From positions 20,437 to 58,953 of the forward strand of contig NZ_JYNX01000016.1 of the NCBI RefSeq assembly GCF_001044255.1: a DNA stretch of 38,517 nt, in the 5' to 3' direction. Shown here in pieces: positions 5,771-17,280 of the stretch. The notes under the pieces are model-generated. The model was not told the origin of the DNA. It saw only the letters and a program-made list of their open reading frames with translations, and did no database searches. A program made the translations under genes and the position numbers. The first letter of the stretch is position 1, and every line of letters begins with the position of its first letter. Source of the stretch: Mycolicibacterium chubuense. GTDB taxonomy: Bacteria > Actinomycetota > Actinomycetes > Mycobacteriales > Mycobacteriaceae.

Positions 5771-6325
5771 GTGAGTCTTCATCAGTCGGCGATCGACACC
5801 CTTGACGCGTGGCGGCCGGCCGACCCGGCGCAGGAGTCGATGCGCCACGCGCTGCTGGCCTTCCTCGACGCCAACGAGAAGGCCTGCCTGCGCGAGTCGG
5901 TGCCGGGACACATCACGGGCTCCGCGCTGGTGGTCAATCACGCGGGGACGCACGCGTTGTTGACGTTGCATCCGCGGTTCCAGCGCTGGCTGCAACTCGG
6001 CGGGCACTGCGAGCCGGAGGACGCGACGCTGGTCGCGGCGGCGCTGCGGGAAGCCACGGAGGAGTCCGGCATCGAGGGCCTCATCATCGACGAGTTGCCG
6101 ACCGCGGTGCACGTGCATCCGGTGACCTGCTCGCTCGGCGTGCCGACCCGTCACCTCGATGTGCAGTTCGTGGCCCGCGCGCCGAAGGGCGCCGAGGCCG
6201 AGCGCAGCGAGGAGTCGCTGGATCTGCGGTGGTGGCCGCTGGACGACCTGCCCGACTCGAGCGATTTCGGCCTCACGCAGCTCGCCACCCTCGCGAGAGT
6301 GCACCTCGCCCCCGCCGCGGAATAG
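5771..6325 (+). CDS. Nudix hydrolase
   Basis: 184 residues from GTG 5771, 22 nt after fbiB. The Nudix box is GGHCEPEDATLVAAALREATEESG at 77-100: the REATEESG half is canonical, while the first half follows the GGHxxPxD subtype with one extra residue. Nudix enzymes hydrolyse nucleoside diphosphates linked to another moiety; substrate unknown. Linkage to fbiAB is seen in related genomes, but a link to F420 chemistry is only inference. The last codons (GCG GAA) and the TAG stop lie inside the left terminal repeat of the element beginning at 6315, so the repeat supplies the end of the protein. A longer frame upstream overlaps fbiB in another phase and was rejected. Confidence 0.88.
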   Translation: MSLHQSAIDTLDAWRPADPAQESMRHALLAFLDANEKACLRESVPGHITGSALVVNHAGTHALLTLHPRFQRWLQLGGHCEPEDATLVAAALREATEESGIEGLIIDELPTAVHVHPVTCSLGVPTRHLDVQFVARAPKGAEAERSEESLDLRWWPLDDLPDSSDFGLTQLATLARVHLAPAAE

Positions 6326-6369
6326 CATTCCTGGCTGCGAAATCGGCTTATCCACAGCCATGGCTTCTC
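6315..6369 (+). repeat. Left 55-bp terminal inverted repeat
   Basis: Outer arm 6315-6338, diverged middle 6339-6352, inner arm 6353-6369. The outer arm starts CCGCGGAATAGCATTCCTGG. The TAG of the upstream Nudix gene is positions 9-11 of the repeat. Confidence 0.85.
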
Positions 6370-6408
6370 GTGCGCTGAGGCCCCCGGCGAAGACCGCATG
6401 CTCTTTTC

Positions 6409-7278
6409 ATGGGGGACGTCATCGTCGGTTCGCAATCCGTGCTCGCGGGCACCATCACTCGGGCGTCGTTGCGGTGGAACTACCACGCGATTTTTCCCGA
6501 CATCTACGTGCAAAAGGACGTCGAGCCCACGCTGGCAGTCCGCACGAGGGGTGCGTGGCTGTGGTCCCGTCGCCGCGGGGTGATCACCGGACGAGCCGCC
6601 GCGGCGCTGCACGGCGCGCGATGGGTCGACGACGCGACTGAGATCGAGCTGCTGTGGGCCAACAATCACTGCCCGGACGGCATCGTCACCAGACGGGAGC
6701 GCATCGCGCCCGGTGAGATCACCTGGATCGACGGCATGCCCGTCGCCACGCCTGCCCGCACGGCCCTCGATCTCGGCCGCTACCTTCCCCGCAACATCGC
6801 CGTGGCGCACCTCGATGCACTCGCCTCCGCGACGGGGGTGACTGCTGAGGAGATCCTCGACCTCACCTACCGCTACAAGGGCAGGCACGGCGTGCGACTG
6901 TGCCGCGAGGCAGTGGAGCTGGTGGACGCCGGCGCGCAGTCACCGCAGGAGACTCGGTTGCGACTTCTGTTGATCGACAAAGGCTTTCCACCGCCGCAGA
7001 CGCAGATCCCGGTGATCGACCAGTACGGCTTCGAGTTCGCATACCTCGACATGGGGTGGAAAGATTTGCGGATCGCGGTGGAGTACGACGGCGATCACCA
7101 CCGCACGGACACTGACCAGTACCGCTGGGATGCGCGGCGTCTGCGCAAGCTGGCTGACGCAGGATGGATCGTCGTTCGAGTGATGGCCGGCGATCGCAAC
7201 GACGAGGTCATCGCCTGGGTGAAACAAGCGTGGGCCCGTCGCCAGAGAGAAGCCATGGCTGTGAAAAGGCCCGCATAG
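6409..7278 (+). CDS. DUF559-domain (Vsr-like endonuclease fold) protein carried in the element
   Basis: 289 residues. The N-terminal part (about 10-130) resembles the helix-turn-helix and beta region of AbiEi-type proteins (VITGRAAAALHGARW, then TPARTALDLGRYLP). The C-terminal part (about 175-275) is DUF559-like, related to very-short-patch-repair endonucleases: SPQETRLRLLL with Glu181, Asp214 in AYLDM, then VEYDGDHH (Glu225, Asp227) and DARRLRKL. These residues could form a PD-(D/E)xK site and look intact. Such proteins are common and uncharacterised in mycobacteria. The last ten codons and the stop lie within the right terminal repeat, so coding sequence and repeat have evolved together. 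No clear Shine-Dalgarno precedes ATG 6409; a CATGCT hexamer 6 nt upstream could be a -10. Confidence 0.8.
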   Translation: MGDVIVGSQSVLAGTITRASLRWNYHAIFPDIYVQKDVEPTLAVRTRGAWLWSRRRGVITGRAAAALHGARWVDDATEIELLWANNHCPDGIVTRRERIAPGEITWIDGMPVATPARTALDLGRYLPRNIAVAHLDALASATGVTAEEILDLTYRYKGRHGVRLCREAVELVDAGAQSPQETRLRLLLIDKGFPPPQTQIPVIDQYGFEFAYLDMGWKDLRIAVEYDGDHHRTDTDQYRWDARRLRKLADAGWIVVRVMAGDRNDEVIAWVKQAWARRQREAMAVKRPA

Positions 7279-7301
7279 CAGCCAGGAATGCTATTCCGCG
7301 G
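7247..7301 (-). repeat. Right 55-bp terminal inverted repeat
   Basis: Inner arm 7247-7263, diverged middle 7264-7277, outer arm 7278-7301. The outer and inner arms match the left repeat exactly in inverted orientation. A further TTCCGCGGCG at 7311-7320 repeats the outermost 10 bp directly (7294-7303) and may be a remnant of another copy. Confidence 0.85.
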
Positions 7302-7328
7302 CGGGCGGCGTTCCGCGGCGAAGGGACC

Positions 7329-16327: not shown

Positions 16328-16390
16328 CCGCGGAATAGCATTCCTGGTTGCGATTTCCGCGAAAGTACAACCGGGAATGCGCTTCCGCGG
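16328..16390. repeat. Solo 63-bp palindrome, copy B (related to the element ends)
   Basis: Arms 16328-16350 and 16368-16390 are inverted repeats matching at 20 of 23 positions. The left arm starts CCGCGGAATAGCATTCCTGG, identical in its first 20 bases to the outer arm of the 987-bp element. It lies between birA and the methyltransferase gene, preceded by a simple CG-rich stretch. Confidence 0.8.
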
Positions 16391-16450
16391 CGCAGAAAAT
16401 GGGGGCATTTGCCCCATGCCGTCGCCACCGTGCCGGTTCACCATCGGGGC

Positions 16451-17206
16451 ATGACTCGATTCCTGACGCTCTGCTACGGCGCTGTCAGCTACGTGCTGTT
16501 CCTCGCCGTGTTCGTGTACGCGATCCTCTGGGTCGGCGATCTGGGCGTGCCCCGCTCCGTCGACCACGCCGTCCAGGCCCCGTGGGGGCAAGCCGTGGCC
16601 ATCGACGTGGTGCTGCTGACGCTGTTCGCCGTGCAGCACAGTGTGATGGCGCGGCCGGCGTTCAAGCGATGGTGGACCCGCTTCGTCCCGCAGTCCATCG
16701 AACGCAGCACCTACGTGCTCGCCGCGAGTGCTTTTCTCGCGCTTGCGCTCTGGCAGTGGCGGGAGCTTCCGACCGTCGTGTGGGAGGTGAGTTCACCGCC
16801 CGCACGATGGACGATCTACATCGTGTTCTGGCTCGGATGGGCTGTCGTGCTCGCGTCGACGTTCATGATCAACCACTTCGAACTCTTCGGGCTCAAGCAG
16901 GTGTTCGCGGCCTGGCGTGGCCACGGGCCGGCCGAGACGGGCTTCCGCACGACGCTGTTCTATCGCGTGGTGCGCCACCCGCTGAATCTCGGCTTCATCG
17001 TGGCCTTCTGGGCGGCGCCGACGATGACGGTAGGCCACCTGTTGTTCGCGTCGGTGACGACGGCGTGGATCTTCCTCGCCATGCACCTCGAGGAGCGTGA
17101 CCTGATGGCGAAGTTGGGACCACGCTATGCCGCCTACCGGGAGACGGTGCCGATGATCGTGCCCCTGCCCGGCAAGGCGGTCTCGCACCCGCGGGCAGCA
17201 GGCTGA
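16451..17206 (+). CDS. Membrane methyltransferase, MddA-like (NnrU / isoprenylcysteine methyltransferase fold)
   Basis: 251 residues with about five membrane segments (near 8-28, 48-62, 88-103, 121-140, 178-210). Signatures QHSVMARP (62-69), FYRVVRHPLNLGF (170-182) and HLEERDLMAKLGPRYAAYRETVP near the end match the MddA type of methyltransferase, which methylates methanethiol to dimethyl sulfide using S-adenosylmethionine; RHP and the EE pair (214-215) belong to the SAM-binding site of this fold. Substrate is inferred from similarity only. ATG 16451 is preferred because upstream residues are not hydrophobic; no strong Shine-Dalgarno is seen. The gene is bracketed by two solo palindromes (16328-16390 and 17218-17280). 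Confidence 0.8.
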   Translation: MTRFLTLCYGAVSYVLFLAVFVYAILWVGDLGVPRSVDHAVQAPWGQAVAIDVVLLTLFAVQHSVMARPAFKRWWTRFVPQSIERSTYVLAASAFLALALWQWRELPTVVWEVSSPPARWTIYIVFWLGWAVVLASTFMINHFELFGLKQVFAAWRGHGPAETGFRTTLFYRVVRHPLNLGFIVAFWAAPTMTVGHLLFASVTTAWIFLAMHLEERDLMAKLGPRYAAYRETVPMIVPLPGKAVSHPRAAG

Positions 17207-17217
17207 GGTCCGCCCGC

Positions 17218-17280
17218 ACGCGGAATAGCATTCCTGGCCGCGAAAATCGCGCAGCAGCAGCCAGGAATGCTATTCCGCGG
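17218..17280. repeat. Solo 63-bp palindrome, copy C (related to the element ends)
   Basis: Arms 17219-17238 and 17260-17279 form a perfect 20-bp inverted repeat around a loop of about 21 nt. The total length equals copy B. It sits between two convergent genes, 12 bp after the methyltransferase stop and 9 bp from the fadE25 stop, so the hairpin could also act in 3'-end formation. No U-tract follows on either strand. Confidence 0.85.

Follow-up and report, generated by a model that had tools for sequence, protein, structure and literature searches.

We propose that DUF559 genes encoding an AbiEi-like half joined to a Vsr-like nuclease half form, together with the palindromes that flank them, a two-part selfish system that would resemble the RAYT-REPIN partnership while relying on an unrelated enzyme. 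This reading is drawn by analogy, and we give it a probability of roughly 0.6; it points to a novel type of minimal mobile element for which no transposase is known. The gene studied here lies in a stretch of 38,517 nucleotides of Mycolicibacterium chubuense DNA (hereafter the window). Our proposal rests on the presence of the same palindrome on both sides of most genes of this type (80/98 loci), on palindrome sequences that track the protein, on copies dispersed away from the genes and on the positional agreement between different palindrome types in two close relatives (8/11 places). It also draws on the lack of any Y1/HUH protein in this genome, and on the purifying selection and invariant catalytic-type residues of the nuclease.

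At the window locus, two arms of 59 nt each, 86% complementary, are separated by 877 nt (Table 1). The first-pass annotation had described perfect outer arms of 24 bp and inner arms of 17 bp with the same 14-bp spacing on both sides. This arrangement was confirmed, except that the 24 bp are a subset of 28 perfect outer base pairs; the inner 17 bp are also perfect and the 14-bp spacers are unlike each other. Aligned locally, the two flanks gave a best score of 31 (40 with a wider window), relative to at most 13 in 12 shuffles. As had been read initially, one ORF lies between the arms, with its final codons inside the right arm. The left arm provides the stop codon of the upstream ORF (ending at 6325), presumably a Nudix gene. 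The arms enclose no transposase gene, which agrees with the earlier reading: the ORF found there is the DUF559 gene, and it matches no Pfam transposase family. No second gene-sized ORF between the arms was taken as real, and the cassette therefore has no partner toxin.

Table 1. Positions of the features discussed in the text (window coordinates, unless a contig of this genome is named).
Feature	Position	Strand	Remarks
Left palindrome copy, family A, asymmetric form	6311..6369	+	Outer arm 6311-6338, 14-bp spacer, inner arm 6353-6369
Right palindrome copy, in inverse orientation to the left copy	7247..7305	-	Outer arm 7278-7305, inner arm 7247-7263; nuclease gene ends within this copy
DUF559/MTES_1575-like nuclease gene	6409..7278	+	289 aa
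AbiEi-like half	6409..6927	+	Residues 1-173
Vsr-like nuclease half	6934..7248	+	Residues 176-280
Presumed DnaA-box-like 9-mer TTATCCACA	6348..6356	+	In the left copy, upstream of the gene
Solo palindrome, family A	16328..16390		
Second solo palindrome, family A	17218..17280		
Insertion-sequence-like breaks at contig ends (G000, this genome)	C14:96, C62:95, C33:113370 and C16:104, C74:95, C6:34190		Loci L017, L035, L013, L026, L016, L036

The arms belong to a dispersed palindrome of about 60 bp, which we call family A. Searching the genome with the outer-arm pattern (at most three mismatches, half-sites within 80 bases merged into one place) yielded 40 half-sites, 18 forward and 22 reverse, at 33 places including both arms, and the reversed pattern gave no half-site genome-wide. 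These 33 places rule out private terminal repeats. The claim that the arms are 55-bp termini of one element had to be abandoned: they are whole dispersed palindromes, and 31/33 places lie away from the gene. Many family-A copies are closed palindromes composed of a half-site, about 29 bases and an inverted half-site. A minority, including both window arms, present a different inner half that ends in CAGCC-ATGGCTTCTC or a similar sequence, and the spacing noted in the first-pass annotation is therefore a spacing within one palindrome. Across 45 family-A half-elements, conservation begins sharply at CCGC-GGAA and no GTAG-type tag was present beside the palindrome. The 28 solo loci scanned in this genome overlap, and some are clipped at contig ends; in none of them does a DUF559 gene lie within 1.5 kb.

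Several other features of the palindromes were recorded. Eleven of 15 complete family-A palindromes pair a TA-type with a GC-type arm and 0/15 possess two GC-type arms, so that an extruded hairpin would bear a recurrent two-base mismatch, a notable feature given the Vsr-like nuclease half. Pyrimidine-rich stretches often precede the palindrome from the outside, on both sides and at many loci (judged by eye and uncounted), and could either belong to the element or reflect a preferred target. The 9-mer TTATCCACA, which we take to be DnaA-box-like, was found within 150 bp upstream of 12/80 DUF559 genes (eight forward, four reverse) and 0 times in the rest of these loci (431,659 bases); close orthologs make up seven of the eight forward cases, and two Arthrobacter loci contain a similar sequence. 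A DnaA box as a universal part is ruled out by this count of 12/80 loci on either strand. Finally, the assembly is broken inside the family-A palindrome spacer by two different insertion-sequence-like ends, three times each (Table 1); REPs are known as insertion-sequence targets, according to the accessible part of PMC1525189.

The same palindrome was found on both sides of most DUF559 genes. The test set comprised 108 loci: 80 relatives (the best 80 of 570), the 12 genes of this genome and 16 loci from a genus search. Ten were dropped, nine with flanks shorter than 700 bp plus L113, and the remaining 98 were scored, a score of at least 16 counting as a pass. Matching palindromes flanked 80/98 loci, a figure in which the relatives are the best 80 of 570, and 71/89 loci after removal of nine near-duplicates. 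For comparison, this score was reached by 1/391 shifted windows, by 72/1,470 pairs of flanks from different loci and by 4/199 ordinary genes in 20 stretches of this genome, the strongest of these four being a repeat of a tRNA-Met end. The counts for ordinary genes and shifted windows exclude the idea that every gene has such flanking hairpins. Paired arms around other DUF559 genes, which the first-pass annotation had suggested looking for, are present at many loci and in many species.

Within this genome, the palindromes differ between paralogs and mostly agree across the two sides of one paralog, with 8/12 paralogs passing the fixed score. The 18/98 loci without a matching pair by score include the paralogs L070, L075, L078 and L079, and L079 possesses a clear pair outside the scored window. 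L078 (G000 C23:45142-45984) is the sole paralog of this genome with an in-frame stop and also has no matching flanking palindromes, as expected if the pair decays along with the gene; L111, which has an in-frame stop too, keeps a borderline pair (16.0). Two contigs labelled as a Bifidobacterium breve MAG (L245 and L269) bear mycobacterial-type DUF559 loci and are probably mis-binned.

We also compared palindrome sequences with protein sequences. The genus search identified 17 loci in 14/118 genomes at E ≤ 1e-95, including our own locus. Fifteen of the 17 share a palindrome on the left and right (score of at least 16; L104 and L113 fail), and this palindrome changes from locus to locus. Among 4,369 locus pairs without matching outer flanks, those with a palindrome similarity of at least 20 make up a share that rounds to 0.00 in each of the four protein-identity bins under 50% (2,317 pairs), which are not strictly empty since the pair L240-L277 reaches 20. 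This share is 0.01 at 50-55% identity, 0.04 at 55-60%, 0.08 at 60-70% and 0.21 at 70% or more (34 pairs); control windows showed no rise with protein identity and stayed at 0.00 throughout. The Mantel r was 0.236, a value that 0/2,000 permutations reached. Across the 118 genomes, five present a protein match of at least 61% identity and nine present family-A arms at E ≤ 1e-4, with four in common, our own included (hypergeometric, 8e-5, uncorrected for kinship). One genome outside this overlap, G027, has a protein match of at least 61% but a changed palindrome, and 5/118 genomes carry family-A-like arms without a close ortholog, which counts against our preferred reading. The locus pairs show that the palindrome follows the protein.

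Other palindrome families are dispersed as well. P079 was found at 30 places (E ≤ 0.0144, the two flanks of its own gene included), which contain eight neighbouring pairs, one of them the gene flanks, all in the same inverted order, relative to 0.16 neighbours expected. P074 returned 14 rows, with seven places at E ≤ 0.05, of which two are the flanks of its own gene, and two weaker places. In a same-genome sample of 558,415 bases (about 0.56 Mb, with overlaps), P075 and P080 each had copies at sites other than their own genes, and P070, P071, P072, P076, P077 and P078 had none; P073 gave two weak matches in this sample, no better than the reversed control with three. In total, dispersal was established for 5/12 families of this genome, and 7/12 had no convincing dispersed copy in the 0.56 Mb sample. 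Two P079 inverted pairs enclose sequence other than DUF559 (G000 C88:11071-11780, L189, and C31:245786-246214, L198), and no convincing DUF559 remnant was found between them.

Plasmid records contained seven relatives (three in Tsukamurella, three in Arthrobacter and one in Nonomuraea), and 6/7 were flanked on both sides by long matching palindromes (scores of 28 to 47.5, controls at most 13.5). The Nonomuraea locus, whose gene start is only guessed, had no flanking match. Searching 72,556 plasmid records (E ≤ 0.01) with three palindromes of these plasmid-borne relatives gave 39, 11 and 20 places, counts in which the two strands of one palindrome may appear twice, and all their matches fell within the organism of origin. 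These searches show that gene-less copies of several families occur at scattered positions and, in the cases tested, are confined to one genome. The palindromes could instead be MITEs moved by an unrelated transposase, with the DUF559 genes as passengers or as users of the same insertion hot spots. This explanation would account for P079 palindromes that enclose other genes too, for the two different insertion-sequence-like ends that interrupt family-A palindromes at contig ends and for the repeated use of intergenic sites. We nonetheless consider it quite unlikely, because the palindrome tracks the DUF559 protein in locus pairs with unrelated surroundings and because paralogs of one genome have different palindromes. 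A transposase scan, which covered PF01797 (Y1/HUH, RAYT-type), also found no match in this genome, with 5/14 control genomes positive; this rules out a RAYT as the mover and, for the Y1/HUH type, extends the initial observation of a missing transposase beyond the arms.

Occupancy of the Nudix-manC junction varies among relatives. A search of 116 genomes identified 30 junction loci, 17 of which were read in detail. Four carry the window gene type (this genome, G019, G027 and G085). In four others (G054, G099, G082 and G037), a different DUF559 gene points the other way and has palindromes of another kind. Of the remaining nine, eight present one solo palindrome of one of several types, as judged by eye, and one (L150) is clean. 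The empty sites anticipated at this junction were found, together with alternative states. The second site (window 16328-17280) is empty in G027 and G099 and holds other palindromes in G019, G085 and G082; in G019 and G085 these other types occur despite a family-A-type manC-side nuclease, which counts against our preferred reading. The ORF located between the family-A solo palindromes at the second site is missing from the site in G019, G027, G099, G082 and G085, has 76% identical DNA elsewhere in G066 and G037, and is possibly a cargo gene.

Across the loci read, the genes are usually bracketed by their own palindrome and the sites turn over between relatives. Arms occur beyond the locus, and DUF559 relatives are neither always found here nor armless; the outcomes that the first-pass annotation had named as refuting its reading did not occur. 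A homing endonuclease gene inserting into pre-existing palindromes, which would otherwise be inert host repeats, could also produce solo palindromes and gene-bearing cassettes at the same junction in different genomes, and the nuclease half is indeed similar to the I-Bth0305I catalytic domain, with a fold among those known for homing endonucleases. This alternative appears highly improbable: each flank, at the window locus and at several others, bears a whole palindrome rather than half of a split one, and the solo palindromes vary from genome to genome and correspond to the nuclease found there.

Among the relatives examined, G054 is the closest (its manC-side gene is 95% identical). In G054, both solo sites of the window are occupied by palindromes of the type found on either side of that genome's own DUF559 gene. 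A pattern search for this type yielded 21 half-sites in G054 and three in our genome. The 21 half-sites were grouped by hand into 11 places, and 8/11 aligned to family-A sites of our genome, one being the nuclease locus itself (rough binomial of 1e-10 for 7/10). The other three had no counterpart locus among the sequences compared and are neutral either way. In G054, a single match to family A reached E ≤ 1e-4, 7/13 candidates having been scored there and 7/34 in our genome. At four more family-A sites with G054 counterparts by position, one asymmetric copy is kept, two counterparts have no palindrome and one is indeterminate. No target-site duplication was recognised by eye among the 45 family-A half-elements and the sites compared with G054. 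This pattern is compatible both with targeted re-insertion at hot spots and with conversion in place. We tentatively entertain the possibility, at below even odds, that the nuclease re-writes existing palindromes: after a swap of the nuclease allele, sites of the old type would become the new type, the sequence of the dispersed family would change along with the enzyme, and sites rather than sequences would be inherited. Family A and the G054-type palindromes have a common GCATTCCT core, which could permit cross-recognition.

Based on a second look with VIA-align, the first half of the protein resembles AbiEi antitoxins and the second half resembles Vsr and I-Bth0305I. The earlier proposal of a Vsr-related nuclease is borne out, with the addition that the Vsr-fold half is joined to an AbiEi-type half. 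The protein matches MTES_1575, AbiEi_1 and DUF559 in Pfam, all under curated cut-offs; NCBIfam returned only matches far under the cut-off, and Foldseek found no match in PDB at E < 0.001. Residues D214, E225, H231, D241 and W253 are invariant in 66 sequences. The dN/dS of 0.16-0.22 relative to four orthologs indicates purifying selection and rules out a dead gene. The genome carries 12 matches to the protein, including the window gene, and the gene type is present in many mycobacteria and some other actinomycetes. A phage- or plasmid-borne element was ruled out, the phage search giving two weak matches and the plasmid search seven records, all large and predicted to be non-mobilizable. A second DUF559 type (L080) was found in six plasmid records, of which only that of Tsukamurella covers 80% of the query.

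The protein might alternatively be a regulator, with its AbiEi-like half binding palindromic operators at the gene and at dispersed sites; the palindromes would then serve as operators or two-way terminators and be immobile. The AbiEi fold, the stable hairpins predicted in the flanks and the position of the window-locus copies at the 3' ends of adjacent ORFs are all consistent with such a role, which we consider unlikely: a matching copy also lies downstream of the gene, relatives present empty, occupied and type-switched sites, and the nuclease half is conserved under purifying selection. For the two-part selfish system that we favor, the association of gene and palindrome is observed directly in these genomes, and we infer from it a cycle of cutting, copying and replacement. 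AbiEi antitoxins bind inverted repeats, and the AbiEi-like half would bind the palindrome arms. Nicking or cutting by the Vsr-like half would take place at the palindrome, probably in its extruded or single-stranded state. Host repair would then insert a copy of the palindrome alone, or of the entire palindrome-gene-palindrome cassette, at a new site or in place of an existing palindrome. To our knowledge, Vsr-like enzymes possess no strand-joining activity, so integration would fall to the host. This point weighs against our reading, as do the 18/98 loci without a pair by score, the Nonomuraea locus, the 7/12 families without convincing dispersed copies in the 0.56 Mb sample, the P079 pairs around other genes and the failure to recognise a target-site duplication.

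The accessible portions of PMC3116915, PMC8266576 and PMC3733652 describe RAYT/REPIN systems in which palindromes flank a single gene and also occur dispersed in its absence, with several families per genome and intergenic locations. The DUF559 genes are similarly flanked by members of dispersed palindrome families, several per genome and intergenic. RAYTs are HUH tyrosine enzymes, whereas the protein here is AbiEi-like and Vsr-like, and the GTAG tag found there is replaced by the CCGC-GGAA start of family A. In TIRtrons/TIRYTs, long inverted repeats specific to each gene lie on both sides of it, and some of these repeats make up families (PMC3733652, in the part available); our loci share this organization, but TIRtrons/TIRYTs encode HUH tyrosine transposases. 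What distinguishes the window gene from I-Bth0305I-type homing endonucleases is the added AbiEi-like half, the dispersed palindromes on its two sides and its intergenic position, outside any intron or intein as read here. Relative to the AbiEi antitoxin of type IV toxin-antitoxin systems, a nuclease half is added and the cassette is without a partner toxin. CGTC REPs, which the accessible text of PMC3733652 presents as dispersed palindromes without a dedicated transposase, are similar in both respects, and a possible connection to DUF559 is a lead only.

No description of this system was found in the open-access literature, a search that covered no preprints and few subscription papers, and none of the 14 papers found there that name DUF559 has a title about repeats. 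If our reading is correct, dispersed palindromes could be spread by a nuclease class without known transposase chemistry, and the REP-type partnership would have had a second, independent origin. It would also provide a function for DUF559-type genes, of which there are twelve in this genome alone, and many naturally diverged enzyme-palindrome pairs for studying recognition. Finally, these nucleases would constitute a candidate partner class for palindrome families that are said to be without a transposase.
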